A stretch of DNA of 64,000 bases from Zingiber officinale (taxonomy: Eukaryota > Streptophyta > Magnoliopsida > Zingiberales > Zingiberaceae), in contig NC_056004.1 of NCBI RefSeq assembly GCF_018446385.1, positions 29,084,492 through 29,148,491 on the forward strand, read 5' to 3'. Numbering within the stretch: the stretch's first letter is position 1; each line of letters opens with the position of its first letter. The position numbers and the translations under genes are program-made. Shown here one piece after another: positions 5,436 to 53,509 of the stretch. Below the pieces are notes generated by a model that was given only the letters and a program-made list of their open reading frames with translations, did not search any database and was not told the origin of the DNA.

Positions 5436-5471
5436 CGGTTTGTATTAATCAAGATTTAGATGAGAACTTAA

Positions 5472-5732: not shown

Positions 5733-5735
5733 GGT

Positions 5736-8868: not shown

Positions 8869-8884
8869 ATCTCCCCCTTTTTGA
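8869..8884 (-). promoter_or_regulatory. Polypurine tract of copy A
   Basis: On the minus strand AAAAAGGGGGAGAT abuts the 3' LTR start. It is the expected primer for plus-strand DNA synthesis and is identical in kind to that at 51608-51622. Confidence 0.8.
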
Positions 8885-13147: not shown

Positions 13148-13265
13148 CTTGAAGTTGAGCTTGATAAAATCTTGAACTTGAAGAATTTGCTCCAACTTCT
13201 TCACCCTCTAGCTTGGCTTGTTTTGTTTGCCCCTTCCGGCGATGACTCCGGTGAAGAGCAACCTA

Positions 13266-13279
13266 GCTCTAATACCACT
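13266..13279 (-). promoter_or_regulatory. Primer binding site of copy A
   Basis: On the minus strand, next to the LTR end CCTAACA, stands AGTGGTATTAGAGC. It is the initiator-tRNA-Met type site TGGTATCAGAGC with one C-to-T change. Confidence 0.8.
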
Positions 13280-17363: not shown

Positions 17364-17368
17364 AGGAT

Positions 17369-29534: not shown

Positions 29535-29770
29535 CACACCTAATAGACAACAGTTTTTCAAGAAATTGTTGTCTTTTTTCCATTTAACAACAGTTTTATT
29601 GAAAACTGTTGTTGTTCACCATAATGTTTTTTAAATAACAATAGTTTTTCAAAAAACTGTTTTCTAATGTGTGTCAAAGACAACGGTTTTAAAAAAACTA
29701 TTGTCTTTTAGTGTTGCTTATGTGATAATATACAACAGTTTTATTAAACTGTTGTCTATTGAATGTTGTT
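29535..29770. repeat. Left subterminal repeats of CACTA 3
   Basis: Repeated AACAACAGTTTT and AAAACTGTTGT units, alternating in orientation, followed by the unique cargo from about 29780. Confidence 0.8.
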
Positions 29771-29966
29771 GAATCCTAAAGGTGGGAGTTTATTTATTTA
29801 ATAACCTACACATATAAATCTAAACAATCTCATGTTTTTTCTCCATTCCTCCTCTTCTCCTGCCGATCTCACCTCACCGCGATCTCCTCTTCATTTGAGT
29901 AAGTCTTCTCCGTAGAGATCTCTCTCTTGCATTTCCGCAAACACTGCATTTGCACGACGTTTGCAG

Positions 29967-30786
29967 GTTTCCTCCCCGCTCTCGACAAGCTCGGCCGGAT
30001 CTGCCATGTCTACCTCACACCCGACCACGCCATGTTCCTCCACAACCTCCTCGGCGGCGGTGGAGTCCAGTCCGTCGCCCAGTTCGACAAGGACGTCCTC
30101 TTCCGCCACTATCGCATCTCCAGCTAGAACGCCGGCCGGATCGCCTTCGCAGTGGACGCCTCCCTCCTCCACCGCGCCCTCCGCAGCGCCCTCACCATCC
30201 AGGAGCAGGCCCGCGACGAGACCGCCGCCATCCAGATCAAGCTCGTCAAGAAGCTCCCCACCAGCTCCCGCAACCCTGCCCCCTTTCTCACCTTTGAGAC
30301 CAAAGGGAGGGTTTCCGCCATTGTGCAGGGCGTGCCCATCTCCAAGCCCCTTTCCCGGTCCGACGTGCTTCATATCCAGTCGGCCTTGGATGCTTCTCAA
30401 GATCTGCCTCAGGTATCAGTCAAATTCCAATCTTTTAATCCAAATTATGCTACATGTACTTTGCAAATAGATCTTTTGGTGATAATTGCGTCCTGTAAAT
30501 TGATTCAATTGGATTGAAGTGATATACTGGGATGATGTTCTGTAGTATTTTCTTGGGCTTTAATTGAATGGTTGTGTAGTAGCTTAGCTGCTATGCTTGT
30601 TCTTGTAGACTTTGGTTCAGGCCCCTGATCTCGCTCAGCTCCAAAGCTTGGTGGACCGTCTCAAGTATGTCGGTGATGTTCTCACTGTCTCAATCGCACA
30701 GTATGGAGATCTTCACCTGCAGGTTTCTACTTCCCTTGTCACAGTTGGGTCTGAATTAAGGAAACTGAGAGTCCTAGGTGTTCGAG
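29967..30786 (+). pseudogene. HUS1: Captured HUS1 checkpoint clamp gene fragment
   Basis: HUS1 is one subunit of the 9-1-1 (RAD9-RAD1-HUS1) DNA-damage clamp in the nucleus. Exon 29967-30412 follows a TTTGCAG acceptor and encodes FLPALDKLGRICHVYLTPDH, MFLHNLL, SVAQFDKDVLF, RISS, then IAFAVDASLLHRALRS, LQ-type strands including IQIKLVKKLP, PFLTFETKG, VPISKPLSR and SALDASQDLPQ, ending at CAG|GTATCA. Exon 30609-30786 begins TLVQAPDLAQLQSLVDRLKY and includes GDLHLQVSTSLVTVG. Together they give about 207 codons, roughly two thirds of the family length; the first exon's start and the C-terminal part are missing. A TAG at 30125-30127 (after RISS) stands where Gln is expected. It lies within CACTA 3, so it is cargo. 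Confidence 0.85.
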
Positions 30787-31560
30787 GTACTCGCTCAAAT
30801 GTCTTCCTTCTTCATCCATCTTTTGTTGATTAGGGCACATAGACAATTAATTATCCCATTTTGTTTTAGGCTGCGAAAAGTTTGATCGTTATAGCTCATG
30901 ATTTTACAGTTTCAAGCTTTTGATTTTTGGAGAATGACTACAAGTGAGCCGTTCTCACAACTTTTCCATTGTCTTTATGCTTATCCTTTAACTATTAGCT
31001 TAGGTCGTAAAAGAAATTTGTTCGTAAGGATATAAATGCGAAAGGATGACACTGACATCCAAAAGTGCCATTAAAGGTTTGTGTTAATGAGAAGTGGTTA
31101 GTGTGAACGTATGCTTGCTTTTGGAGGAAGAATGTTTGTTCTTTCTACTATTGAGAGTTAATTGTTAGTTATTTTACTTATCTTTCCTTTGCACCAATTA
31201 GAATGTTGGTACTGATAGAATCATCAACCTCACTTTTAGCTCTTTTAGTAGCAGATATAAAATTATGTGGTTCTTCCTTCTAAAGTTAATTCTGATCCAA
31301 TAGAAAACTTCCTTTAGTATTTAATGCAACATGTTGGAGATTTAGTTTTTCTATAATTCTTTCTATACCAATTGCCATGTATGCTAGTTTTATTGTTGGA
31401 GTTTAGTTCTTTTATAGAAGAAATTCTTTCAGTACCAATTGTCATGTTAAGTTAGCTTTATTATTGGAGTTTAGTTCTTTTTACAGATAAACTATCTGTA
31501 AAAAGTGATTGTTTGAACAATTTTATAGCATGCATCTTGACAATTAATATAATTTTGCAG
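30787..31560. other. Non-coding stretch between captured fragments
   Basis: AT-rich sequence that may be intron from one or both donor genes. Near-repeated sentences such as GGAGTTTAGTTCTTTTA occur at about 31400 and 31455. No gene seen. Confidence 0.5.
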
Positions 31561-31648
31561 ATCACTATCAAGGAAGAATGTTCAAAGGAAAGTAAAGGCT
31601 AAGGAGAAGAAACCATATACTCCATTCCCTCCTCAGCCACCAAGCAAG
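31561..31648 (+). pseudogene. KRR1: Captured KRR1 exon
   Basis: KRR1 is a KH-domain component of the small-subunit processome that acts in the nucleolus in 18S rRNA maturation. This 88-base exon has an acceptor (TTTTGCAG) and a donor (AAG|GTGAAG). It encodes SLSRKNVQRKVKAKEKKPYT followed by PFPPQPPSK, matching the conserved KKPYTPFPP block after the KH region. Only this exon is sure. Possible further exons at 31950-32030 and 32188-32300 (each with an acceptor-like AG) are open but not recognised. Confidence 0.65.
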
Positions 31649-32507
31649 GTGAAGTTATTGTTGCAATCTGTGAACATTAAATTGCAATTACTTTATCATT
31701 TCTTAGTTTTTTTTTCTAACTTACATTTGCAATATTTGCATCTCGATTCATTCGATTATGTTCACTTTGTATTCAACATGAAGCTAAAAGGTGTTTTGTA
31801 CATATTAAAGACTCTTTGGTGGTTTTTTTAGTTTCAATCTACTGTTCTGCTATAATGTTCTTCTTTAAGATTATGTTGCATTGATTTCTAAAAGTTGCAT
31901 GACGTCTCTCTACTCTGCCTTCAAAACTAACGATTTATGTTGTTTCAGGTAATTACTGCAGCCATTCCTACTATAGTTGGTGAAACCCTTAACATGTTCA
32001 TGACTTTAAGAGCCACCATATTGTTTCAAGAGGTTACGATTTATATTACATAGATAACGCTTTTTGCACTTCTGTTAGATGACTAGATCAAATGGTTTTT
32101 ATTGTTATGTAACATTTATGCAGTGCAATTAGAATCACGCGTACAGTTTAGTTTCTAATTTGTAATTTATATCTTTATTCGAATAGGTGTCCTCAAGAGT
32201 ACTAGGAAGAATGCCGACAAGCAAAAAAAATGGAGAGACTTTAACAAATTAAGGAGCACTAGGAGCTGCAGTCCCTCCTCTTCACCGACATCTAAGTAGA
32301 AAATCTCGTGTTATATTGTTCTACCTTTGTTTTAATAGTGTTATCATTTTGTTGGTTGCTTATGAAATTTCTTCAGAATGTTATAGATATTATTTTTGAA
32401 TGTTAGAAAATTGTATATTAAATTTTATTTTGAAATTTAATATTTTGAATGATTTATAACATTAGAAAATTGTGTATTAATTTTTTATATTTTTTATCTA
32501 AAAAAGA

Positions 32508-32787
32508 CAATGGTTTTTCACCGTTGTCGTAGATAGTTTAAAACTGTTGTTGAAGACCCTGTTGTTAAAGGTAGACGCTCAAAGACAACGGTGAAAAACT
32601 GTTGTCTTTGAAGGAAAAGACAACAGTTTTTCACCGTTGTAAAAATGTTGTCTTTGCCTTCAAAGACAACGGTTAAAAACTGTTGTCTTTGGGTACCCCT
32701 TTTAACAACACGGCCTTTAACAACAGTTCAAAATGGGCTACGACAACGGTGAAAAACCGTTGTTGTTAGGCTTTTTTCTTGTAGTGT
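32508..32787. repeat. Right TIR and subterminal repeats of CACTA 3
   Basis: At least eight GACAACGGT/ACCGTTGTC and ACAGTTTTTCACCGTTGT units in both orientations, several forming hairpins, then TTTTTTCTTGTAGTG. Confidence 0.85.
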
Positions 32788-33339
32788 TTGTATTGACTTG
32801 TCTTTATGTTTTTCCGCTGTGTTGGTTTTGATTACAACCGAGTGGGCTGATAGAAATATATATAACTGTGTGATTGTTGTTATATTTGTCCAGCCGTGTA
32901 GGCTGAGATTATTAACTACGTGGTTGTGTATATATGTTTCAGCCGTATGTGGCTGATGTATATTATACCTGTAGAAATGTTTCAGATTGTCACTCATACA
33001 GGGGAGGTGCTGCCAAAATTTCTTCGGACAGGGACTCCCCCGGGGCGTGACAGAAGCTACCCTTACTAATTTTCACTAGTTAGACCAAGGTTTTGTACTA
33101 AGTTCAGTGAATAAGACTATTTAGAAAACCTCAAAGATATGGTTACTCTAATAATGTCCAAGTGACTCACCATAGCCCAGAAGTTTATTGAGAGAATGTT
33201 TATTTGTTGAGCCTAAAGCTAAACCTAAATCTAACACAAAGTTAAATCAAACCCTAAAATTGAACTTAACTTCATCTCACAAAAATTATAGGTTTTTCTG
33301 ATTGAAAATATAGATCGGGTAAGATGACTAAGGACTTCG

Positions 33340-36300
33340 AATCGAACCAAATCGAATCGAATCGAACCAAATCGAACTACAGTAAATCTAATTAAAATTA
33401 AAATTAAATTAAATCTAATTAAAATTAACTTAAATTTAATTAAATTAAATCTAATTAAAATTAAATCAAACGAAAATTAAATTAAATTTGAATTAAAACT
33501 AAAATTAAATTTAAACTAAAATTAAATTAAATTAAATTTGAATTAAAACTAAAATTATATTAAATTAAAACTAAAATTAAATCTAAATTAAATTAAAATT
33601 ATATTAAATTAAAACAAAATTAGATTAAATTAAAATTAAATTAAAATAAACTAAATTAAATTTAAATTAAATTAGATTAAATTAAAATTAAATTAAACTT
33701 AAATTAAATTAAGATTATATTAAATAAAAATTAAATTACATTTAAATTAAATCAAAATTAAATGAAATTAAATTAAATTGAAAATTCGATTTTAAAATTA
33801 TTTTAAGTTTTTTTAAAAAATAATTATCTAAAAAATATTTTAAAATTAAATTAAAAACTTTTTTAACCAAAAAAATTATTTTAACTTAAAAATTATTTTA
33901 ATTAAAATATATTTTTTAAAATTATTTTAACATAAAGAATTGATTTAAAATTTATATTAAAAATTATTATAACTTAAAAATTAATTTAAAAATTATTTAA
34001 ATTTAAAAAAAAAATAAAAAATTATTCAACAAAATATTTAACTTAAAAATTAATTTAAATAAAAAATTAATTTAAAATTTATTTTAATTTTACAATTTAT
34101 TTTGAAATAAAAATTGTTTTAACTTTAAAATTATTTTAATTTAAAAAATTATTTTAAAAATTACATTAATTTAAAAAATTGTTTTGACTTTAAAAAATTT
34201 TTAACATAAAAATTAGTTTAAAAATTATTTTAACATATTATAAAAAATTACTTAAACGTAAAAGTTATTTTAAAAAAATAATATCTTTATTTTAAAAAAT
34301 TAAACTTTAAAATTATTCTAAAAATTTATTTACCTAAAAAATTAATTTAACTTAAAAATTATTTTGAAAAAATATTTTAACTTAACAATTATTTAAAAAA
34401 ATTAATCTAACTTAAAAATTCTTTTTATAAAAAAATTATTTTAACTTAGAAATTATTTTAAAAATTAATTTAACTTAAAAATCATTTTAACATATTTTAA
34501 AGACTTACTTTAACTTAAAAAGTTTTAAATTTAATTAAATTTAAATTAAAACTAAAATTAAATCTAAATTAAAATTAAACTAAAATAATATTAAATTAAA
34601 ATAAAATTAATCTATATTAAATTAAAATTAAATTAGATTAAATTAAAATTAAATTAAAAATAAATTAAACTTAAATTAAATTAAAATTAAATTAAATTAA
34701 ATTAAAATTAAATTAAATTAAATTAAAATTAAAATAAAATTAAATTAAATCAAAATTAAATTAAATAAATTTAAAATTAAATTAAATTAAATTGAAAATT
34801 CGATTTTAAAATTGTTTTAAGTGTTTTTATTAAATAATTATCTTAAAATTTATTTAAAAATTTATTTTAACCAAAAAATTATTTTAACTTAAAATTTATT
34901 TTCAAAATTATTTTAAATTAAAAAATTATTTTAACTTAAAAATTAATTTAATTTAAAGCATTATTTTGAAAATTATTTTAATTTTAAAATTAATTTAAAA
35001 ATTATTTTAATTTAAAATATTATTTTAAAATTTATTTTAACTTAAAAATTATTTTTATTTTAAAATTAATTTAAAATTTTTATTAATTTTAAAAATTATT
35101 TTGACATTAAAATTATTTTAACTTTAAAATTGTTTGAATTGAAAAAATTATTTTAAAAAGTATTCGACCTTGAAAATTAATTTAAAAATTATTTTAATTC
35201 AAAATTTTATTTTATAATTATTTTTAAAAAAATTTTAACTTAAAAATAATTTAAAAATTATTTTTAACATATTTTAAAAAATTACTTTAACGTAAAAATT
35301 ATTTTAAAAAAATATTATATTATAAATTATTTTAAAAAATTAATTTAAAAATTAATTTATCTTAAAAATTAATTTAACTTCAAAATTAATTTGAAAAAAT
35401 AGTTTAACTTAACAATTATTTTAAAAAATTAATTTAACTTAAAAATTATTTTTTAAAAAAATTATTTTAACTTAGAAATTATTTTAAAAATTAATTTAAC
35501 TTAAGAATTATTTTAAAAATAATTTTAACATATTTTAAAAACTTACTTTTTCTTAAAAAATATTGTAAAAATTATTTTATCTTAAAAGTTATTTGAAAAA
35601 TTAATATAACTTAAAAAATTACTTTAAAAATTAGTTTAAAAATTATTTTACCTTAAAAAATTATTTAAAAAATTTAATTTAACTTAAAAATTATTTTAAA
35701 AAAAATTATATTAACTTAAAAATTTTCTTAAAAAATATTTTAACTTAAATTTTTTTTAAAAAAATATCTTAAAAAATTATTAAAAATTAATTTAACTCAA
35801 AACTTTATGAAAAATTATTTTAACTTAAATATTCTTTTAAAAATTATTTTAACTTAAAGTTTATTTTAAAAAATTAACTTAAAAATTATTTTAAAAATTA
35901 TTTTGAAAATTAACTTTAAAAACTATTTTAAAAACTTTTCCAAAAATTAACTTTAAATCTATTTTAATAATTATTTTAAAATTAACTTTAAAATATATTT
36001 TTAAAATCATTTTAATATTAACTTTAAAATCTATTTTAAAATATTTTTAAATTTAACTTAAAATCTACCTTAACAATTATTTTAAACTAAAACTAAAATT
36101 AAAAATCAAATTTAAAATTAACTTAACTAAAAATAAATTTTAATTAAATTAAACTAGTTAAATTAAATTAAATCAAATTAAACTAATTAAATTATGTTTA
36201 GGTTAAATATTAAGCTTTAAACTTAAAATTTAAACTTTAAACCTTAACTTAAATTTCAACGTAATTTAACAACTTGAAATTAAAAACTTATTTAATTTAC
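33340..36300. repeat. ~3 kb G-depleted A/T repeat tract
   Basis: Two textures alternate: short AAATTAAATT runs (33360-33780 and 34520-34800), and longer loose units of about 20 bases around ACTTAAAAATTATTTTA (33800-34500 and 34810-36060). G is very rare on the plus strand while C persists. Expansion by slippage is likely. Confidence 0.8.
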
Positions 36301-38826: not shown

Positions 38827-41800
38827 TGTCACGCCCCCAAAGAAGTTCCTGTCAGACAAAAATCCGGCAGAACCTCCCCTGTACCGGTGACAATCTGAAG
38901 CATCACTACAAGCAAAATACATCAGCCACATGCGGCTGGAATATTTATATACACAACCACGCAGTTATAATAACAGCCCACACGGCTGGAATGAAACAAT
39001 CACAACCACGCAGTTATATATAAAACAGCCCACACGGCTGTACTAAAAACCATCACAGCGGAAAAACGAAAACGGAAAGCCCAATACAACACAATCAACA
39101 CACTGCTAGCCGGCTAGGCTTATACAACAAATACAACACCAAAACCATAAGATAGTCACACGGCTATACACAAATACAATGTCAAAAATAAGAAAAGAAT
39201 ATACAAAAGAAAACAATCACGATCTTCGGATGTGATGTAGGACCCGGCAGACAGGATACTCCGAGCGACACCCCAACCATCTACCTGAAAACATAAATGT
39301 ATACATGCGGTGGTGAGTATAGGTAACTCAGCGGGTAATAGAAAAGATAGTGCATGGTCTATACATAAAACATGGAGATCACAAGTATACAGTCTCAGTA
39401 GGGAATAAGAACATGATCATACTATCATAATCAATGCATCTGAACATACCTGACATAATAACCTGACATAAACTGTACAAACCACAACTAACATAATGAC
39501 AGATACATACCCAATCTGAAATCGACGCAAGGTACAAAAATCAGTAAACTCACTGGATCTGCAACAGATATACCCGTGACACCTGTGCAATATAAGTACG
39601 ACTGCATATACATGTAAAATAAATGACATGTATGCAGCATGGCAACCAAATGCAACAATCATATCGCAAACAAATGCAACATACCACAAACACATGCAAC
39701 TAGTATCTAGTAGGCATGTATGCAAATATAACCCCCAGATGCACCGTGCATCATATGCAAAAGTGCATGCATGCTCCATGGTCACCCCCGCCACCTCTCC
39801 GAACACCACGACCCCTGTATGGCCGAGAGGCTTGGGTCTGTGACGACTGTACTACCCTCCAGCCCACTATATAGTGGTCGAGGCGGACAGTCCGCTAGTA
39901 GCTGTCTAACTACATAGCATCAGGGTCCCTGACTGCTCACAACGCCGGATCTCACTAAACCTCGTGACCGGGTGGCACGACAGGACTAGCAGCAACTGCT
40001 CCAACTACCACTACCCATGAGTGGCCGAGTGGGCGGTGCTAAACCAAACCAACTGATGACTCTCTCACCACAAGGGAGATAATGGTCATCAGATGCAATG
40101 AATGATGAACATGATATATATATATAATCATCATCCATGCAACAACCCCAAACCTCATAAATACCTCCAACATGAGTATAATCGTCATGATACCTCCACG
40201 TATCCCACCAAACATATGTACCCGCTACATATGTATAATCGACCGAAAATCTCCAACAATCCCACCAGACACATGTACACAAAAATATAAGTACAATCAA
40301 CATGTATCCTCCAATACAAACACCTCAGACCCGTGTATAAACCATAAACACACAATCAACACAACTCCTCCAAAAGTACATAACCAAACACGTGTGTACA
40401 TACAACATGCAAATGTAGGGTCAACCTGATGACTCCCAAAACACATACCAAGCTATATACAATCCACATTATGTACCCAATCAGCATGGTAATACTAACC
40501 GCCCGACAATCCCTACAAGACATACTCTACACGTGTAATCACAACAGAGTAGATATCAAGAGTGGAGACTGTATATGAATTAAATAGATCGTTCATAAGG
40601 GTCAAGCATAAGTATCATGCAGGAAAAACAGCAACCGATCAGGATATAAGATAAAGCAGCCTAATTCATCCAATAATAACCATGCACTAAGTACAAGAAA
40701 AACTACATAGAGGCAAAGGAAGAAATACCCGCCTTTATCTGTCGATCGTGATCTGGAAATCCCACGTCGAGACACTCGTCTCAAACCAAAGTCCTGCAAT
40801 CATATAATGTATTTAGCTAGTTACATATGAAGTAAATAACTAAACAACTTCCCCCACCTAATTAGAATAACCCTAATCAAACATGATTAAGGATTAATCC
40901 CTAAATAATCCTTAATCACACTCCTTCTAGATCCCAACATAATCCACAATCCATTAATAAATCCAATGATCCTAAGAATGATCACATAACAATCTACATC
41001 AACCATGATCAATCACAAACTCCAACATGATTCACCTTTAAATTCTCATCCATATTCATAATTTCCAATCCCAAATCCCTAATCTAATATCAACATGGAT
41101 TCAACAATACTTGCTAATATATCTAAGCAAGAAGAAAACCCTACAACCCATAAAAACCTAATTGTGTAACATGCTACTAAGAATAAAAAGGGCATCACTG
41201 AAATACACTCACCTTGAGATAGAGCAGCCCAATCCAGTATCTCACCGCCTTACACCCACTATCCAGAAGCTACAAAAGTGCACAAACACCTATGCTTCCA
41301 AGAAACAATCCAAAACATACCCATGATGATCATGTATCCATCTACATAAGTCATTCACTAAATAACCATTACAAATCAATCCCAAAGCTTACCCAACCTG
41401 GACTTCTCCTTAGTCGATTCTCTGCTAGAAATTGGTAGCTAGGGTAAGGTGGGGTTGCTGCACTCCCAAACCAATATCCTAAATACAACCAACATCTCAA
41501 TATATAGCATTAGATTCAAATCTCAATCCACCAACCGAAACCAACCAACTTATCTAATACAAGAGAAAAAACCAACAGTATATCAATTCAATTCTCATCA
41601 TAGCTTACCTCCAATTTGATCCCTGTTTTCCAACAAGAACAGTGATGTGTAATCGGCTGTGTTGTCTGGGAGATTCAAAGCAAATGCCTCATGCTGAATC
41701 CAAGCAACAAGGCTAGTACAACTCCAAGGATCAGGAACAGAATCCCTCTACAAGGAAAGGATCGAGAATACAAGCAATGCTCAAAGCAAAGATCGGCTGG

Positions 41801-42539
41801 ATAAAGAGAAAACTAGAATCAACGACATAACCTACCTTCCTGTGGCTGGAAGTATCGCGACTAATCCAATAAGTGGGCGCGGTGGGAAAACAGGAGCTAG
41901 GGCTCCGATCCTTGCTCATGTCCAAGATCAAATCGTGCCAAGGCGAGGTCTTGGATCAAGAAGAAGGTTGCGGACCCGAAGCTAGGGCTCAGGAAGCGGT
42001 GGCCAGCATCGGCTGCTCCTGGATGCCCGGCGACCAACGAATCGGAGCAGCACAGGGTTGGCATCGCGATTTTGGGGAGGAATCGCGAGGGAGAGGGAGG
42101 AGAGGATCGAGCCACCTGGTAGCCAAGAGAGGTTGGCGTTGGTGAGGCACGCGGAGGAAAGGTCGCTGCCGGCGGTGAACTCGCGATGGCCGGCGATCGG
42201 GCGAGGAGGAATCGCCGGAAGAACTCGGGAGGAAGGAAGCCGCGTGCGAAGGGGAAAAAGGATGGGATCGGGGGAAGAAATGAGGAAAAAAAACAATTAG
42301 GGATTTAAAGTTAATTTAATACTTAGAGTTAACTTAATCAAACTCTAAGTTTATTCCTCAATCAACTCCCACTTAATTTGAGTATTCCAAACAGGCCTCC
42401 ACTGTACCCCGAATCCATCCCACCAAAACGGGTCATACGGACTCCGTTTAAATCCCGAAAAATTTCTAAAAATTTCTGAAAAATCCCATAAGATTTTTCA
42501 TCCAATAATATTTATTATTTAATTTTACGGTATTTTACA
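38827..42539 (-). repeat. 3' LTR of gypsy element
   Basis: 3713 bases. By eye it differs from the other LTR at about ten sites, nearly all transitions plus one or two indels. The GC-rich block at 41870-42290 and open frames such as 39417-39809 recur in both LTRs and are not genes. Confidence 0.92.
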
Positions 42540-42562
42540 TTCTCCCCCACTAATAAAAATTT
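42540..42562 (-). promoter_or_regulatory. Polypurine tract of gypsy element
   Basis: On the minus strand AGTGGGGGAGAA stands directly before the LTR start TGTAAAATACC. Confidence 0.75.
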
Positions 42563-42599
42563 GGTCCCCAAATTTACTGGTCAACTCAGGGATCCACAC

Positions 42600-43800
42600 T
42601 CAAGGGTATCATCCAAGTATAACAACTAAACCACATACTCACCCACTACTCCGTCATAACATCATAAACATATTTCCAACTATGACAATCCAACTCCAAG
42701 TGAATAGTGATGACTCTGTAAGCTATGAGCTCACTCTGCTCCTACTACTCCCACTCTGCAATCTAGCCAACTGTGGATAAATCAAACACCTCTGAAATCC
42801 CAACATCCACTATCATCAAATCCTCCAACATCTGTAAAAAGTGCTCAAACTATCCATCAGTCTGTGAGTAAAAATCTATACTAAAGTGAAGCTCCTAATC
42901 TAAAGTCTACTATAGCCTCAGCCAAAACTATGAGGTGAAATCGCTTATCTCCATCCAATATAACACTCAGAGATATACCATGAGGTCCGGTAATCTCTCT
43001 AGAGTATAATCCTACTACTCAATCCAAAAGAATCCATCCTACAAATCAATAACTAGGAAGCAAGTCATCACCCAACCATGATTACCCAAACCAAAATATC
43101 CTCTCATGTCCTGGATAATCCCACCACAAAAATCCGTCAAACACGCTCCCAACTCCACTCTAGTACCTGAGTCAACAGCAACAATCCTGCTAGTCTCTGA
43201 CATTCAGCCTCCACGTGTCAACACACTAGACATCAAACTACAAAATCCGCGATATGTCTTTCTTCATGTCGTTCCACCAAAGAGAATGCTCCAAGTCTCC
43301 ATACATCAGGTATCAACCGAATGTATCACAAATCTCGATCAATGTGTTTCCTGCAGTAACTCCTCCCAGATAAGAAGTGACTCGAAAACACACATAATCT
43401 CCGCTAATATCTAGACAGATCAAGGAAACTGCGAGTCTCCTGTATAGACTACGACTACTTCCAACTGATAACAGCCTCTATCTCTTGTGGATCCACCGAT
43501 ATCTCTCTACTAAAAACAATGCGTCCCAGAAACTCGTAAAAGACAATCACAATACGTACTACTAACTTCACATATAGATGTTCCCGTCGAAACATCTCTA
43601 GAACTATGCGAAGCTAGTGTACATGATCCACCTTGGATCGAAAATAGATCACAACATCGCCAATAAAGACAATGTAAACTAATCTAAACACCCTAATGAT
43701 ACCAAATACATCAAGTCTATGAAAACATCTAAGCACGGTATGCCTAAATGGTAACACCAAAGACTCATAATGTACATACAATAGGCGCACTCAACCGTAG
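42600..43800 (-). pseudogene. pol: Degenerate gypsy pol: reverse transcriptase and integrase
   Basis: On the minus strand at about 43555-43790 the frame shows a decayed reverse transcriptase palm: LPF near its start, then VYIVFIGDVVIYFRSK and EMFRREHLYVK. The catalytic FIDD-type box reads FIGD, so a metal-binding Asp is lost. At about 42780-42960 an integrase core/C-terminal stretch reads HFSIDFYSQTDG and MLEDLM, with several stop codons. RNase H should lie between but was not clearly read. The many stops make it non-functional. Confidence 0.75.
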
Positions 43801-45761
43801 GATCCTCAACAACAAGCCTATGATCAAATCACCAACTACAAATCACCAAATCCATAAATATCACACAAGTGCTACTACTCATGTTACTATCAACATCAAT
43901 TACCAACTAATAGATCATCAAACCGAATATCCACCAAGAGATCATCAACAGATAACATATCATCACACCTGATCTCCTAATATCTATCAATCAAAATCAT
44001 CCTCAACATCAATCAATCATACCGGATAGTCTCCTACACAAAGATAGAGAAATACGAAAGCATACAACCCTCAACACCTACTGCCAACAAACTAAATGTA
44101 TCCATAAAGTCTGTCAAATCTCATCATCTCATCCTTTCTGATAATCAAATATCCATAGTAAAAGAATATCAATCCAAAGTCAAAGGGTCACACAATCTCC
44201 TGACCAAAAATCTACCCATCAAGCAAGTATCTCCGCAACCCTCATCTATAAATGTCCCTCGACAAATACCGATAAAAGTTCAACCCCTCTAATATGAGAT
44301 ATAGACTACAAGATCTGGTAAAATGATCACGTGGTCAAGGTCTTGAGCCACTAGATAGAGACAATGTTAGTTGAGTCGTCTAATCATTGTCTTGTACCCC
44401 CATCATACTGTGATTGCTCCATCTGAGGTTCAGTAACCTCCAGTATCAAGCAATGAACACAAGGATAGAGGAACGCTACAACTCAACAACTGATCAAAAT
44501 ATCTGTCAATCGACGCTCTACCCCTCGAAGATCATCATCTGAAATTATACCTAGTTACGGTCTGACCTCCTAGGTATTACTCAACTACATCACTTCCTCC
44601 GCACCATTGCGGGGTATATATCACTAAGTACATCATGGATATCTAATCATACCCAATAGTTCCATGAGTCAGGATCTCCCATGGAACAGCGTTAGGCGAG
44701 TCTACTAGTCATCTCCTTAAAATCCATCGTGCTGACGAAAGAAGTAGAGAACTACTCCCTCTCCAAACACCCAAGGAAATCACTAAGTGATGACCTGATC
44801 TCCAAAAACATTTCCTGCTTCTTCCTTCACGTGGTACCGGGTCACGTAAAGGTTAAGTAGCTAACTTCAACTCTCTCATGTCAGCACAAATCATATATCC
44901 AAATGTACTCTCCAACTCATACACCCTAGTAATGGATCCATCTCATAAGTGTTAAGCAGGTAGCTTTACGCTTTTCCACATCAGTGGAGGTATCCTATCC
45001 GAATGTACCTTCTAAGTCATCCTATCAGGTACAAATAGTCCATGGTCAAAGTCCCCATGGAATAGGATATGACAACCCTCTACACTGACTAAGCCGATAA
45101 TGGTATACGACTAATTCAGACTTCTCTACAGTGGTACAAGTCATGCACTCAAATGTGTCTGCCAAATATCTAACCAAGTATGAAACATCCCAAAGATAGG
45201 AATCTCTAAAAATAGAGTAAGTCAGTCCCCTACTGGTCGGACCAACAGAATAAATCGATCAACACTATCTGACCCAACAAGAATAAATCAATCATCCACT
45301 GATGAAACAAACTAAGGTAAAATCGATCCACCACTACCCAAGTCAAGGAAGGTAATCTACTAACCTAACCAACAGGAGTAAATCAATACTCTACTAATCA
45401 AAACAACAGGCGTACAAAACCCACTAAGATAAATCAAACCCTAACTGTCCAAGTCAACAAGGGTAATAAGTCAAACCATAACTACACAAGTCGACCAAGT
45501 AAATCAATCTTCAACAGGAGTAAACCGGTACTCTACTAGCTGAGTCAACATGGGTATACAGATATCATTCACTACACAACTAATGATAACCGAGACTGGT
45601 ATACGACTCTACCTCTCAACCAACTAGTAGTAATAGACACTAAACTACTGGTAGTATGATATGATGAATCCCCTGAGACTGTAATCCTTGATCTCCATTA
45701 GGTCAACCGTGATCAGTGATTGACCCAACACATGAAATGCATAATATAATCAACTAGGCAA
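43801..45761 (-). other. Gypsy element interior, gag/protease region not recognisable
   Basis: About 2 kb where gag and protease would be expected. Only short frames are present and I recognise no zinc knuckle or protease motif. Heavy decay is likely. Confidence 0.5.
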
Positions 45762-45766
45762 GTACT

Positions 45767-47353
45767 TGTTGGTGCAATATCCCTCAGGTCAAGGGTGACC
45801 TGGTTAATCAAGCTGAGTCTTGGTTAGGGTTTAGATGTTTGACAATAAGATATTGATTGAAGAAGAGTCAAGTAGGTCAAGGTTGACTGGATACTTGACT
45901 GGGAAGTCCTAACTGGCAAGCTAGGCAGAAGGAAATCCTGGTGAGTGAAGCCAGGTGAAAGTCCTAGTGAGTGAAGCTAGGCAGAAGGAAATCCTGGTGA
46001 GTGAAGCCAGGTGAAAGTCCTAGTGAGTGAAGCTAGGCAGATGGAAAGTCCTGGTGAGTGAAGCCAGGTGAAAGTCCTAGTGAGTGAAGCTAGGCAGAAG
46101 GAAAACCCTAGTGAGTGAAGCTAGGTGAAAGTCCTGGTGAGTGAAGCCAGGCAGATGGAAAACCCTAGTGAGTGAAGCTAGGTGAAAGTCCTGGTGAGTG
46201 AAGCCAGGCAAGGAAGGAAATCCAGATGGATCAAGGATGATCGGACATCTGGTGTTGGGAAGTCCAAGTAGGTCAAAGGATTGACTGGATACTTGGCAAG
46301 GAAGGAAGTCCAGATGGGTCAAGGTTGACCAGACATCTGGTGGAAGTCCAAGTAGGTCAATAGAGTGACCGGATACTTGGCACGACGAGTAAAAGTCCAA
46401 GTGGGTCAAAGGGATTGACCGGACACTTGGTGGGGAGTCCTGGCAGGTCAAGGGAGTGACCAGATGCGAGGCATGATGTACCAACAGGTCAAGGTTGACC
46501 GGATGTTGGTTAGGGAGGTTTGGGACTTGGTTTTGGGCAAAAACCAAGTGCTGGATCGATCCGTGGATCGATCCAGGATGTGGATCGATCAGTGGATCGA
46601 TCCAGATTCTTCCCAGCGAACAGAAAGCTTCTGGATCGATCCGTGGATCGATCCAGAGGTCCCGATCGATCAGCCGATCGATCGGGACGATGCTGCTTCG
46701 CGCGATAAGCACTGGATCGATCCGTGGATCGATCCAGGCGCGTTTCCTGAGCACAGAGGCGCTCTGAATCGATCCGTGGATCGATCCAAAGCCTCCCCGA
46801 TCGATTGGGAACATTCGAATCGATCGGGATCCGACCGTTGCGTCGTGTTTAAAGCCGCAGGCGAGCGTGGTCTTCGGCATCTCTTCACGAGCTCTTCTCA
46901 GATTCACTCCAGCTCCTCCACAGCTCTCAACAAGCACGTGATCGCCAGTTCTTGAAGGTTCTTGGAGGCTTTCCAAGTCAAGAGACGGATCTATTGCAAG
47001 AGGAAGAAGTTAGGGTTAGGGTTTTTACTGCATATCTTGTAAGCTTTTGCTTAACTTGTATTTCCCTTTCTTCTTCTTGTATTGAGTGTTGTAGGACTTC
47101 TCCGCCTTTGGTAGTTACCATAAAGGAGTGTTATTCATAGTGGAGGGTGTGTGCGTTGGTGTGGATCCTTGGATTAGTCACCTCTTGTGAGGTGGATACC
47201 AAGTAAAATCCTAGCGTTAGCGTTTTGTATTTGTTTCTGTATTTTCCGCTGCACATTCAAGAAGAAACAAGCAACGCCAAGCAACGAAGCGCACCGAGCG
47301 AACGCGACGAGCTATTCACCCCCCCCCCCCTCTAGCTACTTTTGGTCCTAACA
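45767..47353 (+). repeat. 5' LTR of copy B
   Basis: 1587 bases. Regions in order: head with CAATATC/GATATTG arms (45775-45781 and 45849-45855); CCTGG...CCAGG and CCTAG...CTAGG array (45900-46210); GGTCAA...TTGACC inverted pairs (46215-46505); GATCGATC palindrome array (46550-46830); C-run and CTCTAGCTACTTTTGGTCCTAACA end. A spliced or translated role for its open frames is unlikely. Confidence 0.92.
46550..46830. repeat. Palindrome array with matched arms
   Basis: Examples: CTGGATCGATCC-GT-GGATCGATCCAG; GTCCCGATCGAT-CAGCCG-ATCGATCGGGAC; CCCGATCGATT paired with AATCGATCGGG across 11 bases. Arms differ between units but stay complementary within each unit. The same array lies at 52496-52776. 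Confidence 0.88.
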
Positions 47354-47370
47354 AGTGGTATCAGAGCGAG
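47354..47370 (+). promoter_or_regulatory. Primer binding site of copy B
   Basis: AGTGGTATCAGAGCGAG begins directly after the LTR. TGGTATCAGAGC is complementary to the 3' end of initiator tRNA-Met. Confidence 0.88.
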
Positions 47371-47487
47371 GCCGCTCTTCACCGGAATCATCGCCGGAAG
47401 GGTCAAGCATAACAAGAAGAGCTAGAGGGTGAAGAAGTTGAAGCAAAATCATCAAAAGTCAAAGATTTCAAGAAGCTTAACTTCAAG

Positions 47488-49272
47488 ATGCAATTCCAAG
47501 ATGGACTTGGATTTGACACAAGGGTGGCTCCACCATACACTTCCACGAGTTTCGATTCTTGGAAATCAAGAATCGAAAATTTCCTTATGATGGAGATAGA
47601 GCAATGGTTTGCTCTCATGGAAGGATTTGAAGCTCCAACAAACTCCAAGGGCAAGCCTCTCAAGAAAAGCAAATGGGGTCAAGAGCAAGTTCAAAGGAGC
47701 AAGGCAAACGATAAAGTGACCAAGCTTTTGGTCAACTTATTGCCAAGCAATATTTTGGCTCAAGTTGGAGAATTCAAGGATGCCAAGGAGCTTTGGAGCA
47801 AGTTGGCATTAATCCATGAGATCCCCTCCACTGTACCGAATCAAGAGGAATCCAAAGAGGGCGACTCAATGGATCAAGATCAAGAGGAGGACTCCGAAGT
47901 TGAGAGATGCTCAACTTCCGAAGAAGAAGTCCAAGAGGAAGCTTCATCCTCAAAGGAGTGCAATCAAAAGAGCAAGGAAGTAGTATATTCCTTGTTTCAT
48001 GTACAAGAGGATGAAGAAGAAGGAGAAGCCTCCACCTCTAGGATTGAGGGGGAGCAATCTTCATTGACACCGGATCAAGAAGAAGGAGAATCCTCCACAT
48101 CCGGGTCAAGAGAAGAAGAGGATGAAGAAGCGTCCACCTCCGCAAGTCAAGCAAAATCAAATGGAGGAGTATCAAGTTTGGATCAAGAGGAAGCTTCTAC
48201 CTCCGGATCCAAAGGAAAAGATGCCACCCCTACAAGCAAAGGTATAAATATTTTAATTAATAATAAAAATCATATTATATGCTTTGAATGTAGGAAACAT
48301 GGGCACTACAAGAGCAAGTGCCCTAAATTGGCCAAGAAGAAGGGTCAAGTGGCACAAAAGGGCAAGGTGAAGCCCAAGGAGATCATCCCCAACACAAAGA
48401 AGAGCAAGGAGCATATTATATGCTTCTCTTGCAATCAAAAGGGGCATTACCGAAGTCAATGCCCCAAGGGGAAGAAGATGGTCAAGGCTCAAGGAGGCAC
48501 TAGTCAAGGGGGAGCCTCCAAGGTAAAGAAGAAGGTATCTTTTATTGAGTCTATTCCCTTGCAAAATGGTAAAAAGCATGCGAGGTCAAATTTTTATCAT
48601 TTTAATGCAATTTATCATAAGAATAGAAAGCATGAGGGCTTTAAGGAAAAGCATGTGGCCCTACATGCCAAAACTACACCTAAGGTTAGGAATGTAGGTA
48701 AAAATCTAGGCAATAACTCTAAGGATTTTAGATACAAGCCTAGAAACAAAAATGCTCATGAACCAAACACTAAGGATTTAATGATAGAAAATCAAGTCTT
48801 GAGGTCAAGACTTGATAAAATGGAAAAGACCCTAAAAAGGATGGAAAATATCCTAAAAGGGCAAAATGAGCAATACCTAGGGCTAGGAAAATCAAAGCCA
48901 TCCAATGGTCATAGAGGTTTGGGATACAAACCAAAGGCTAAGAAGGATATGCCCTCTTACCATAGGGTTCCATATAGTTATGGAACAAACCCTAGGTTTA
49001 GTGGTCAAGTCAAGAATACTAGGGAAGTCATCCCTAAGAGTATTTTTGCAACCAAAGTGACTAAGACTTCTAAGAAGTCTAAGAAAGTCACTAACAAGGT
49101 CACAAGGGAGGCTATCCCTAGGGTTGACCTAGAAAATGTGACCAAGGCTTCTAAGAAACCCAACAAGGTCACTAGGAAGGTATCTAGGGAAGTTATCCCT
49201 AGTGAGTACCTAGAGCATCCAAGGAGCACCAATAGGTGTTGGGTTCCTAGGAGCATCTTCTCTACCCCATAA
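47488..49272 (+). CDS. gag: Gag polyprotein, full-length open frame
   Basis: 594 codons from ATG (47488), with no upstream in-frame ATG, to TAA. Residues about 18-112 look like the UBN2-type gag core (FDSWKSRIENFLM; LLVNLLPSNI; AKELWSKL). Residues 118-245 are acidic Ser/Glu/Gln repeats. CCHC zinc knuckles fall at C265-C268-H273-C278 and C312-C315-H320-C325, both perfect CX2CX4HX4C. A short coiled coil lies around 430-465 (ENQVLRSRLDKMEKTLKRME), and the C-terminus is Lys-rich and ends WVPRSIFSTP. It should assemble particles and bind element RNA. There is no protease after it, so processing would need help in trans. The long acidic part and coiled coil recall SIRE/Maximus-type copia gags, a tentative link. 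Confidence 0.9.
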   Translation: MQFQDGLGFDTRVAPPYTSTSFDSWKSRIENFLMMEIEQWFALMEGFEAPTNSKGKPLKKSKWGQEQVQRSKANDKVTKLLVNLLPSNILAQVGEFKDAKELWSKLALIHEIPSTVPNQEESKEGDSMDQDQEEDSEVERCSTSEEEVQEEASSSKECNQKSKEVVYSLFHVQEDEEEGEASTSRIEGEQSSLTPDQEEGESSTSGSREEEDEEASTSASQAKSNGGVSSLDQEEASTSGSKGKDATPTSKGINILINNKNHIICFECRKHGHYKSKCPKLAKKKGQVAQKGKVKPKEIIPNTKKSKEHIICFSCNQKGHYRSQCPKGKKMVKAQGGTSQGGASKVKKKVSFIESIPLQNGKKHARSNFYHFNAIYHKNRKHEGFKEKHVALHAKTTPKVRNVGKNLGNNSKDFRYKPRNKNAHEPNTKDLMIENQVLRSRLDKMEKTLKRMENILKGQNEQYLGLGKSKPSNGHRGLGYKPKAKKDMPSYHRVPYSYGTNPRFSGQVKNTREVIPKSIFATKVTKTSKKSKKVTNKVTREAIPRVDLENVTKASKKPNKVTRKVSREVIPSEYLEHPRSTNRCWVPRSIFSTP

Positions 49273-51607
49273 ATGGGTTAGAGAGTGTCAACTCCAATTA
49301 GAAGGGTAGTTAACCCAACTTTGAGGAAATTGACACTCAAGGAGCATTTTCAAGGTTTTTGTTAACCTTTGAAAATGAAATGGAACTATTATTTACTCCT
49401 TGAAAGAGTAAAATGTGCCTAGTGGTGAAAATTTGATTTTAATCTTAAAAGGCACACATTGGGAAATTCATAAGAGCTACCAAGTTGGGATTTTGGTATG
49501 TTCTTAGGAAATTTAAGGCAATCCGGGCCTTAACCTTAAAGTGCTACTCTTGTGGAAAAATGAAATATGCCAACATTTGAGGAATATGCTTAATTTCAAT
49601 TGGCATAAATTAATCAAGGGAATTAGAAATGCCAATTTAGGTTTTGGCGTTTTCTTGACGCACTTAAGGGCAATCTAGGTTTAAGTTGTAAGTTTAGCTA
49701 AGGTTTTAAGGATACTTAGATAGTTAATCTAGGTATATTTTATTTATGCTAAATCTTGCCATGATTGTTTGCCCATCATATGCCATGACATCATGTCTAC
49801 TTTTGCATTCATGACTTATTATGAAAAATACAAAAATACCATGTCATGACATTCATACATCATGTAGTTATAGGATATTTTCTTTTGAAAATTATTTCCT
49901 TTTGATGTATGCCATAACATTATCATGCATTAGTTTAATTTCTTGAAATTAAGGATAAATGGCATTTAACAACACTTATTAACAAGTGACATCCTAGGTG
50001 GATGTCTAATATCTTTGAAATGCCTAGATAGATATGCATGATCCCTAGAATAGGGCAAAACCAAAATCTTACATCTCACAAGGACTATAAGATGACTTGT
50101 ATGTGTTTTAGTGCACATTAGATACAAGTGAGATGTTAGGAAGATGAACAAAACTCAAAATGTTGATTTAGTGCATTCTTTTGAGTTTTAGGTTCATCAA
50201 AACACATAGTTATGTGTTTTCCCATCATTGGGAAAGCTAATGTACAAGTCATGTGCATTATGTCCAAGGAACATGATGGGATATTGGTTTTGAAAATGTT
50301 TTTAAAATGTTTTTGGAAAACCTTGGTGAAGGCTATCTTTTGATAGTAATCACCATTGAATAGTTAGACACAAACTTGAAGAAAACACTAAAGTTTTTGC
50401 AAGTTTTCAAGTTTGTGTCAATCTTTGAAAATATGATGTATTTTCATAGAAAACTATTTTTCCTTGATAATATATGCCCTAAACAATGTCTACACGAAAT
50501 TTCATAATTTTTGGATTTTTGTAGAATTTTCTAGGGGTTTCTGAAGTTGACTGAAATGGAATTTCAGCAACTATCAGAGCTCCGATCGATCCATGGATCG
50601 ATTGGAGTGCCTGAATCGATCCATGGATCGATTCAGAAGGTAACTCCGCGATCGATCAGCCGATCGCTCCGAGTAGTCTGAATCGATCAGTGGATCGATT
50701 CAGAAAGGTTCAATCGATTGGAACCCAACTCCAATCGATCCAAGTTGCTGATTTTGGCTGGGAAAGCCTGATTTCAGCACTTTGAACCTATTTTAGTCTA
50801 GGTAACCATTCCAAACCCTTTAAAATACATTTGTATACATAAAAAGGGTGTTTTCGTGTTGAAAACAAGGATGGAATGGTAAAGAAAGACTTCATTGAAG
50901 TTTAGGTTGAGGTTTGTTTCAAATTTTGAACATTTGAACCTCAAAACTTCTAAATCTGGGTTTCCTAAAGGTTTAGGGATTCCAAGTCATTGTTGGTGCA
51001 ATGACAGAAGTTACCACCATGTCTTTAGGGGGAGGGACTCTTTAAAGACATGAAAATTATTTTTCATGAACCTTGGAAGGTGGTTAACCTTCTGTTGTGA
51101 ACTTGCTCAAGGTTGAGCATTTAAACTTGAAATGGGGATAAATGGGGAGTGGATATCCTCATCATTTCAAGTGGCAACTCAAGTGGTTGAAAATGCTCAA
51201 GGTTGGGTATTTGTCAACAAAGAGGAAGAAGTTAAAGATAATGAAGGGTATGGGACCTTCAATATTGAGTTGATCACAATGAGTGAAATTATAATCACGA
51301 TGAACAACTCTTCAGGGGGAGAGTCTTCAACAAATGGAGTTGTTGAAGTGTGCCCAAAATTGGAGCATAGGTTGATGTGTGTCCAAAGACGGGTTGATGT
51401 TTTTGTAGGGGATTGATGTGTGCCAATAGGGGGAGAATGAAAGGAAGTAAGTTAGGTTTTCATTACCTAGAGGGAGTTTGCCCTCTAAGGGGGAGAATGG
51501 AAAGCTTAATTTATGGGTTCATTACCTAGTGGCATGAAGAAGGAGGCTATAGGATTAGCCTAACTTACATGTGGGATTGTAAGTGTTTTTGTGGTATTGT
51601 CAAACAT
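49273..51607 (+). other. Non-coding interior of copy B
   Basis: 2.3 kb between gag and the polypurine tract. No pol motif in any frame. Long stretches match copy A (8885-11341), so the lack of pol is a family trait, not a fresh deletion. The hairpin cluster at 50580-50745 lies within. Confidence 0.8.
50580..50745. repeat. Internal ATCGAT hairpin cluster, copy B
   Basis: Perfect palindrome CTGAATCGATCC-AT-GGATCGATTCAG (50611-50636), with neighbours whose arms are CTCCGATCGATCC/GGATCGATTGGAG and CTGAATCGATC/GATCGATTCAG. It corresponds to 9784-9950. Confidence 0.85.
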
Positions 51608-51622
51608 CAAAAAGGGGGAGAT
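51608..51622 (+). promoter_or_regulatory. Polypurine tract of copy B
   Basis: AAAAAGGGGGAGAT immediately before the 3' LTR, identical to that of copy A. Confidence 0.88.
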
Positions 51623-53307
51623 TGTTGGTGCAATATCCCTCAGGTCAAGGGTGACCTGGTTAATCAAGCTGAGTCTTGGTTAGGGTTTAGATGTTTGACA
51701 ATAAGATATTGATTGAAGAAGAGTCAAGTAGGTCAAGGTTGTTGGATACTTGATAAGTCTGGAAAGCCAAGCTGGGTAAGAAATCCTGTGAGTGAAGCCA
51801 GTGAAAGTCCTAGTGAGTGAAGCTAGGCGAAGGAAATCTGGTGAGTGAAGCCGGTGAAAGTCCTAGTGAGTGAAGCTAGGCGAAGGAAATGGTGAGTGAA
51901 GCCGGTGAAAGTCCTAGTGAGTGAAGCTAGGCGAAGGAAACTGGTGAGTGAAGCCGGTGAAAGTCCTAGTGAGTGAAGCTAGGCGGATGGAAAGTCCCGG
52001 TGAGTGAAGCCAGGTGAAAGTCCTAGTGAGTGAAGCTAGGCAGAAGGAAAACCCTAGTGAGTGAAGCTAGGTGAAAGTCCTGGTGAGTGAAGCCAGGCAG
52101 ATGGAAAACCCTAGTGAGTGAAGCTAGGTGAAAGTCCTGGTGAGTGAAGCCAGGCAAGGAAGGAAATCCAGATGGATCAAGGATGATCGGACATCTGGTG
52201 TTGGGAAGTCCAAGTAGGTCAAAGGATTGACTGGATACTTGGCAAGGAAGGAAGTCCAGATGGGTCAAGGTTGACCAGACATCTGGTGGAAGTCCAAGTA
52301 GGTCAATAGAGTGACCGGATACTTGGCACGACGAGTAAAAGTCCAAGTGGGTCAAAGGGATTGACCGGACACTTGGTGGGGAGTCCTGGCAGGTCAAGGG
52401 AGTGACCAGATGCGAGGCATGATGTACCAACAGGTCAAGGTTGACCGGATGTTGGTTAGGGAGGTTTGGGACTTGGTTTTGGGCAAAAACCAAGTGCTGG
52501 ATCGATCCGTGGATCGATCCAGGCTGTGGATCGATCAGTGGATCGATCCAGATTCTTCCCAGCGAACAGAAAGCTTCTGGATCGATCCGTGGATCGATCC
52601 AGAGGTCCCGATCGATCAGCCGATCGATCGGGACGATGCTGCTTCGCGCGATAAGCGCTGGATCGATCCGTGGATCGATCCAGGCGCGTTTCCTGAGCAC
52701 AGAGGCGCTCTGAATCGATCCGTGGATCGATCCAAAGCCTCCCCGATCGATTGGGAACATTCGAATCGATCGGGATCCGACCGTTGCGTCGTGTTTAAAG
52801 CCGCAGGCGAGCATGGTCTTCGGCATCTCTTCACGAGCTCTTCTCAGATTCACTCCAGCTCCTCCACAGCTCTCAACAAGCACGTGATCGCCAGTTCTTG
52901 AAGGTTCTTGGAGGCTTTCCAAGTCAAGAGGCGGATCTATTGCAAGAGGAAGAAGTTAGGGTTAGGGTTTTTACTGCATATCTTGTAAGCTTTTGCTTAA
53001 CTTGTATTTCCCTTTCTTCTTCTTGTATTGAGTGTTGTAGGGCTTCTCCGCCTTTGGTAGTTACCATAAAGGAGTGTTATTCATAGTGGAGGGTGTGTGC
53101 GTTGGTGTGGATCCTTGGATTAGTCACCTCTTGTGAGGTGGATACCAAGTAAAATCCTAGCGTTAGCGTTTTGTATTTGTTTCTGTATTTTCCGCTGCAC
53201 ATTCAAGAAGAAACAAGCAACGCCAAGCAACGAAGCGCACCGAGCGAACGCGACGAGCTATTCCCCCCCCCCCCCCCCCCCCCCTCTAGCTACTTTTGGT
53301 CCTAACA
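51623..53307 (+). repeat. 3' LTR of copy B
   Basis: 1685 bases. Beyond about 51965 it is nearly identical to the 5' LTR, with about five single-base differences seen by eye. Segment 51735-51960 differs by many 1-3 base deletions. The C-run at 53263-53284 is about 22 long against about 12 in the 5' LTR. Confidence 0.9.
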
Positions 53308-53509
53308 GTACTAACCAGAGAGTACCAACACATGTCATAACTATATGAGCAACAATACATACACCAACAGAAATGCATGATAACAATATGCAAACATACC
53401 TCCTATGGCCTGGAGATGTCCTGCTGCTGCCTGGTCCAAAAACCCGAAAAGTCACATCAAGAAAACCGAATCACGAAATCCAAAACACGAACAATAAGCA
53501 TCGTACCTA

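Follow-up and report, generated by a model that had tools for sequence, protein, structure and literature searches.

The question raised by this locus is whether the many short hairpins of a plant retrotransposon are kept because their arms pair, or are copied along as finished units. The locus lies in a 64,000-nucleotide stretch of contig NC_056004.1 of Zingiber officinale (the window). In a first-pass annotation, made from the letters alone, positions 45767 to 53307 had been described as carrying long terminal repeats (LTRs) built from hairpin modules whose two arms covary. This interval is exactly one LTR retrotransposon, beginning with TGTTGG at 45767, ending with CA at 53307 and flanked by the 5-bp target duplication GTACT on either side (45762-45766 and 53308-53312), and all quoted arm pairs are present. 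The element (element A) is best classified as a non-autonomous, gag-only Sirevirus of the Ty1/copia type, since most of the published Sirevirus hallmarks are present; it has no pol by which to place it in a reverse transcriptase tree. The hairpins are real, and their unexpected part is an excess at synonymous positions of gag and over the linker that follows it. Neither the inverted-repeat excess in gag and the remaining linker nor the Sirevirus hallmarks had been seen in the annotation.

Inverted-repeat coverage was determined for perfect arms of at least 7 nt with loops of 3-30 nt and compared with dinucleotide shuffles. Arms covered 31% of the part with GGTCAA-type hairpins (46215-46550; shuffles 2%, maximum 9%), 55% of the part with palindromic ATCGAT boxes in the U3 (unique 3′) region (46550-46840; shuffles 12%, maximum 30%) and 58% of the part with linker boxes (50575-50760; shuffles 6%, maximum 22%). 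Coverage reached 15% in the gag open reading frame (ORF) and 23-24% in the remaining linker, compared with 3% and 3-5% in the respective shuffles. In the 3′ third of the LTR it was at chance (3% vs 2%), and the array of TGAGTGAAG hairpins, with arms of 5 nt, contains no arm of 7. The left-flank control (40000-45700) was also above its shuffles (6% vs 1%). RNA folding z-scores were low over the whole element and about equal on both strands (part means −2.4 to −3.1), compared with −0.2/−0.1 in the right flank and −0.8/−0.9 in the left flank, which holds a second element; for linker positions 50060-50780, boxes included, z was −17.9. At 28000-36000 of the window, perfect short hairpins occur at 9.75 per kb, compared with 10.1 in gag, and folding z is mostly near zero there, so that raw hairpin density alone is misleading. 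Rfam matches up to E = 1 (twelve, namely eleven microRNA precursors and one long non-coding RNA exon) were far below the cut-offs and were set aside as chance matches to palindromes.

The coding sequence was compared with codon shuffles that preserve protein and codon counts; a stricter version also holds the junction bases. The predicted fold of gag had −908.5 kcal/mol, the shuffles −705.3 ± 22.2 kcal/mol, and none of 60 was as low. For the plus and minus strands, z was −9.2 and −8.2, respectively, or −6.7 and −6.0 with junction bases held. In a repeat with controls, gag of element A gave −9.7/−8.4 and the gag fragment of a related element B in the window −9.2/−9.2. The control ORFs gave +1.3/−0.3 (a tnp2-like transposase), −2.2/−2.4 and −2.4/−2.8; the latter two are mildly low, and the baseline given by the controls is thus not quite zero. 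The hairpin excess peaks at inverted repeats with short spacers. With spacers of 3-10 nt, 11 were observed vs 2.1 expected in gag A, 6 vs 1.5 in the gag B fragment, 16 vs 2.0 in linker A without boxes and 24 vs 2.5 in linker B with boxes. Direct repeats at this spacing were at expectation in gag A (2 vs 2.3). Inverted repeats showed little excess in the control at 22.1-26 kb (5 vs 2.9) and none in the transposase ORF (1 vs 1.3).

Covariation of the arms, as claimed in the annotation, held for the ATCGAT boxes. Examples are CTGGATCGATC/GATCGATCCAG at 46551-46576 and 46712-46737, CCCGATCGATT/AATCGATCGGG at 46796-46828, TCTGAATCGATC/GATCGATTCAGA at 50677-50704, and a CTCC...GGAG box at about 50581-50608 that is paired with one G.T. 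When the first half-site is preceded by A, a T lies across the hairpin in 68 of 78 LTR units and 71 of 71 linker units; in the same units, T occupies the within-half-site position in 8 LTR and 3 linker cases. Counted in reverse, a far-side T has A opposite in 68 of 97 LTR and 71 of 88 linker units, the remainder having mostly G. Over the three positions outward of ATCGAT, matched pairs exceed the independent expectation, likewise among distinct units. Matched combinations include CTGG/CCAG, CTGA/TCAG, CTCA/TGAG, CCCA/TGGG and CCCG/CGGG; unmatched ones also occur. The possibility that the half-sites are themselves palindromes, with pairing arising from direct repetition, is contradicted, as arms match across the hairpin and not within the half-site. 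Matched changes across unit types are thus real in these boxes.

For the two other hairpin classes of the LTR, the proposed covariation was found to be mostly whole copying. In the GGTCAA units, a variable 7-bp outer arm encloses GGTCAA/TTGACC as the inner arm, and the 3′ side bears a bulge of three nucleotides, either GGA or AGA; TTGACC resembles the W-box. The 7-nt outer arms in 46222-46510 are CCAGATG, CCAAGTA (with TACTTGG, 46264-46296 and 46348-46380), CCAAGTG (with CACTTGG, 46397-46430), an imperfect CCTGGCA and ACCAACA (with TGTTGGT, 46480-46510). A survey of 64 LTR sequences, to which some elements contributed both LTRs, yielded 607 loose core matches; 387 had at least 6 of 7 outer pairs, and 287 of these belonged perfectly to six arm types. 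New fully paired types were single units only, e.g. ATCAACA/TGTTGAT. The order of arm types was read in 15 LTRs (8 + 7), and in seven LTRs that are 21-25% diverged from the window LTR (best alignment) it was kept, with a few single-base changes. The CCAGATG unit is missing in element B, and the first unit is broken in the 3′ LTR of element A. The GGTCAA arms represent six types that are copied whole. Among 391 TGAGTGAAG units from 44 LTR sequences, the varying pair was A-T in 181, G-C in 153, G.T in 12, A.C in 9 and other in 36, which points to a single paired change that was later copied, giving two types. No common new paired arm type was found in the 64 (GGTCAA) and 44 (TGAGTGAAG) LTR sequences examined. 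Descent from a few ancestral palindromes copied whole, the alternative named in the annotation itself, largely applies to these two classes. Within the TGAGTGAAG array (51770-52010 vs 45920-46090), the 3′ LTR exceeds the 5′ LTR by about 100 bp and has several small deletions in the arms. Since these differences exist although the LTRs are 98.3% identical over 1444 columns (best alignment; 5′ LTR part 45918-47353), this array changes fast.

Pairing changes between family members were followed in an alignment of 42 linkers, consisting of 40 fetched sequences (79-98% identical to A in the best BLAST piece) and elements A and B, with changes assigned by parsimony. First covariation counts by sliding partners were biased, the pairs having been chosen as paired, and were replaced by a cross-clade version: helix pairs were defined in one clade, double changes were scored elsewhere, and columns with at least 30% gaps were dropped. 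Thereby, pairs were not picked from the branches scored. Double changes at A-clade helix pairs kept pairing in 18 of 25 cases, and isolated complementary pairs did so in 574 of 1318 (p = 0.007); in the reverse direction, the counts were 9 of 11 vs 95 of 220 (p = 0.025). Pairs changed to G.U vs A.C in a ratio of 74:44 on internal and 183:182 on terminal branches (p = 0.02), and G.U inside single-mismatch helices of the linker was weakly more frequent (29 vs 20 column pairs). Covariation in the linker is thus suggestive. The rate ratio of helix columns to other columns, determined on 2001 of 2801 columns after dropping gappy and box columns, was 0.54 on deep branches, 0.60 on A-clade terminal branches, and 0.81 and 0.78 in the other two branch classes. 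Helix constraint on deep compared with post-insertion branches was favourable per seed and null in the pooled box-free test, and is not claimed.

The best explanation, to which we give a probability somewhat short of even, combines Sirevirus boxes, older hairpin units copied whole and a diffuse selection for RNA folding. The ATCGAT boxes in U3 and linker are the Sirevirus-type palindromic repeated motif, probably acting as a DNA-level enhancer array before the promoter. Given the usual LTR layout, in which the 5′ end of the RNA lacks U3, the set of U3 boxes would occur in each transcript a single time, at its 3′ end. The GGTCAA and TGAGTGAAG hairpins would be older palindromic units, whose matched arms diverged before the family spread and which have been copied whole since. 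The whole element, including gag synonymous positions, is enriched in local short-loop stem-loops, most likely because local folds of the genomic RNA are favoured by a weak and diffuse selection that tolerates the loss of single stems. The RNA might thereby be compacted and packaged by Gag, or be protected. As explanation of the gag folding excess, selection on RNA pairing leads but is unproved, its direct test being null. That the entire genomic RNA, gag synonymous positions too, is selected as a string of short stem-loops, with pairing kept while the arms drift, is conceivable and on balance doubtful; it would amount to ordered RNA structure like that of RNA viruses, in a Sirevirus of very high copy number.

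Several results weigh against such selection. Helix columns were no slower on deep than on A-clade terminal, i.e. post-insertion, branches (odds ratio 0.91, 0.59-1.42), so that selection to keep the pairing is not proved, nor is constraint during replication. Some pairs change more than once, and for this reason double changes were also counted per distinct column pair, which gave 13 of 20 vs 523 of 1179 (p = 0.07) and 5 of 6 vs 78 of 194 (p = 0.08), or p = 0.09 and 0.31 without box columns. With single seeds, two of five versions fell below p = 0.05. The internal G.U share compared with the mutation spectrum of unpaired sites gave p = 0.065, the G.U bias was missing in two of five seeds (L033, 23:22; L051, 28:37), and the static G.U excess at stem ends was not significant. 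For pairs present in at least five copies, 239 single-sided breaks stood against 14 matched changes on internal branches. Minus-strand folding was about as strong as plus-strand folding, and the excess folding energy of the linker was slightly larger in sense (−175 kcal/mol) than in antisense (−160 kcal/mol; mean of 42), with about equal z (−14.9 and −15.5). G and T, not A, were the enriched bases in sense-strand loops (G 0.30 vs 0.22 overall, C 0.08 vs 0.16); their composition is neither fully strand-symmetric nor A-rich as expected of RNA loops. Also, direct repeats at 3-10 nt were in excess in gag B (5 vs 1.5) and in both linkers (6 vs about 2), and controls showed excesses at 36-44 kb (inverted 29 vs 4.3, direct 34 vs 5.7) and, mildly, at 54-60 kb (inverted 11 vs 3.9).

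Strand symmetry favours a DNA-level process. Through template switching inside hairpins, in DNA replication or in reverse transcription, one arm could be copied from the other with no structural selection; this mechanism has been published for RNA genes (PMC8794818). This would fit Watson-Crick stems that fold about equally on both strands, an excess that peaks at short spacers and affects coding and non-coding DNA, and the existence of matched double changes. However, among 259 single-branch clusters of at least three substitutions in the linker tree, with gap-involving events left unscored, complementarity went up in 84, down in 102 and was tied in 73. With no arm-copying footprint in these clusters, the palindrome-making copying mechanism, which the annotation had also offered, is rather unlikely.

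Alternatively, the boxes might be dyad sites for dimeric regulators, the units copied whole, and the rest conserved sequence with incidental inverted repeats. The predominance of six GGTCAA arm types among the well-paired units, the W-box likeness and the slowness of helix columns in every branch class are in line with this, and Sirevirus boxes have been discussed as cis-regulatory (PMC2829016). It leaves unexplained, however, both the hairpins at gag synonymous sites and the matching of box arms across two half-sites, and we regard it as unlikely. Chance, composition or low complexity would be suggested by the raw hairpin density of the 28-36 kb control, by gag direct repeats that are also in excess at longer spacing, and by the mildly low codon-shuffle scores of two of three control ORFs. 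Dinucleotide and synonymous shuffles fall short of the effect size, by which this explanation is largely contradicted and very improbable. The combination of boxes, whole copying and diffuse folding selection remains our preferred reading.

The features of element A are compiled in the table below. At the 5′ junction, CA (47352-47353) is followed by AGTGG (47354-47358) and TATCAGAGC (47359-47367), and the poly-C run is longer in the 3′ LTR than in the 5′ LTR. TTTAAAG lies about 20 bp past the last U3 box and is not a clean match to the Sirevirus TATA motif. The product of gag has two CCHC motifs by eye; with Pfam, a zinc knuckle was found at amino acids 311-327 above cut-off, and the copia gag model matched the N-terminal part with 22.3 bits, below its cut-off of 27. 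Between the LTRs, gag is the sole sense-strand ORF of at least 100 amino acids, and no pol or env-like ORF is present among the listed ORFs of this size. Further linker copies of the polypurine tract AGGGGGAG are located at 51314, 51428 and 51488, giving five in the linker; two more are found in gag. The inverted repeat around the junction of polypurine tract and 3′ LTR has perfect 14-bp arms, the left one 4 nt from the tract and the right one 67 bp within the LTR.

Features of element A and their positions in the window
Feature	Position	Strand	Length or details
5′ LTR	45767..47353	+	1587 bp; read directly
GGTCAA hairpin unit, outer arms AGTCAAGTA/TACTTGACT	45866..45900	+	
Ten TGAGTGAAG hairpins in tandem, with arms CCTGG/CCAGG or CCTAG/CTAGG	45934..46212	+	
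Seven GGTCAA...TTGACC-type units	46222..46510	+	First unit GATCA/TGATC
U3 cluster of palindromic boxes	46551..46828	+	14 ATCGAT copies; just upstream of TTTAAAG (46848-46854)
Poly-C run near LTR 3′ end	47319..47331	+	Position of Sirevirus integrase signal
LTR/primer-binding site junction, AGTGG + TATCAGAGC	47354..47367	+	9-nt initiator-Met tRNA primer site
gag ORF	47488..49272	+	594 amino acids; strongly hairpin-rich at synonymous level
Non-coding linker	49273..51622	+	About 2.3 kb; no listed ORF of at least 100 amino acids; hairpin-rich all along
Linker cluster of ATCGAT boxes	50581..50745	+	9 ATCGAT copies in 50575-50765; same motif as U3
Upstream polypurine tract copy AGGGGGAG	51027..51034	+	
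Left arm TATTGTCAAACATC of inverted repeat around polypurine tract/3′ LTR junction	51595..51608	+	Right arm 51690-51703
Terminal polypurine tract AGGGGGAG	51613..51620	+	Followed by AT; starts 10 bp before 3′ LTR
3′ LTR	51623..53307	+	1685 bp; TG start at 51623

Related copies are present in the window and in the genome. Element B, also gag-only, is located at about 7376-14094 on the minus strand and is 87% identical to element A in gag and linker; its gag is split in two ORFs, one LTR is cut short, and the hairpin excess is found likewise. Another LTR of the family, which lacks an interior of its own, lies at about 15955-17366 (minus strand) in the region 14083-17328. This region repeats 5461-8842 in pieces that are 96-99% alike, so that the two LTR regions look like parts of a segmental duplication. 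Repeats of the ACAACG/CGTTGT type at 14083-14330 and 5461-5597 form a different hairpin-rich repeat at the end of the short LTR of element B. A genome search with the C-terminal part of gag gave 91,750 first-look candidates; of the best 120, which were scored, 115 had no stop over the matched part, and many lie in an open frame about 616 amino acids long. Open frames in such number point to use of gag, whether in cis or shared. An autonomous partner, looked for in the 16 kb separating two LTR matches, was not found in the 8 kb that were read; the linker of the family is present there, with other DNA after it, and the one long ORF has no Pfam match.

If its coding and non-coding parts are indeed moulded into hairpins, the element bears, for an unknown gain, the known cost that hairpins can feed plant small-RNA silencing (PMC10760457). 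Palindromic boxes were described for Sireviruses in 2010 and can lie within a wider hairpin landscape: such LTR and linker boxes are known, and here the whole body, with its protein-coding part, has an unusual wealth of short hairpins, possibly a sign of maintained pairing. In this very large family, RNA pairing can be followed as in a natural evolution experiment, the post-insertion copies serving as a near-neutral control.

Several known systems can be compared. TR-GAG elements are non-autonomous LTR elements with LTRs, a primer-binding site, a polypurine tract and a gag ORF only. Element A shares this set of parts and the absence of pol, and differs in that its lineage can be named (Sirevirus-like) and in its additional hairpin load. 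In RNA viruses with genome-scale ordered RNA structure, coding RNA folds better than codon-shuffled versions. The gag RNA of the window is likewise predicted to be more stable than its synonymous shuffles; the difference is that here predicted folding is about equal for the two strands, and the excess lies in short perfect stems. Among the titles and opening lines of abstracts listed from the open-access literature, none presented a codon-level folding test of a plant retrotransposon gag, which is weak evidence of absence. Quasipalindrome mutation by template switching differs in that multi-base changes raising complementarity are not in excess in the linker tree.

The closest likeness is to Sireviruses, of which the SIRE/Maximus lineage of Ty1/copia, with Opie-2, PREM-2, Tnd-1 and others, was compared as far as covered by the available part of PMC2829016. 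The supposition that the hairpin modules were undescribed is only partly right, since palindromic boxes in LTR and linker whose arms differ between elements are published there (Table 3), as are hairpin small RNAs elsewhere (PMC10760457). According to PMC2829016, the Sirevirus LTR end CA is followed by ATTGG or AGTGG and TATCAGAGC; AGGGGGAG tracts are multiple, and AT/TG comes after the last one, which lies exactly 10 bp ahead of the 3′ LTR; a poly-C-rich signal marks the LTR 3′ end; the junction of polypurine tract and 3′ LTR is surrounded by an inverted repeat, its left arm bordering the tract and its right arm on average 28 bp inside the LTR; and the U3 palindromic motif has at least 8 copies in elements having one. 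Element A shares the CA/AGTGG/TATCAGAGC junction, the repeated tracts with the last one and AT before the 3′ LTR, the junction inverted repeat, the poly-C run near the LTR end, and boxes in both U3 and linker; a large gag with CCHC motifs, which in Sireviruses goes with a coiled coil downstream, would add to this, its copia gag match being below cut-off. Its right arm lies deeper in the LTR than the published mean. Its boxes have no CGG-CCG core, which occurs in 12 of 13 elements of Table 3; the exception is Tnd-1, whose box ACAATCGATTGT contains ATCGAT and which also is without the conserved TATA motif that comes soon after the boxes in Sireviruses (PMC2829016). The core is therefore not universal and its absence not excluding. 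Linker boxes go with an env gene in the Sireviruses described there, yet element A has them without pol and without an env-like ORF. Because of this association, they may be a relic of an env-bearing ancestor. Extra hairpin classes, i.e. the bulged GGTCAA units and the TGAGTGAAG array, are a further difference.

Many palindromic hairpins in Copia LTRs are also known from maize, where those of Copia/Sirevirus elements, miRNA-like in character, have been linked to small RNAs and methylation (PMC10760457). There, as described in the available part of that article, hairpins are concentrated in the LTRs, whereas in the window gag and linker are enriched too, compared with synonymous and dinucleotide shuffles.

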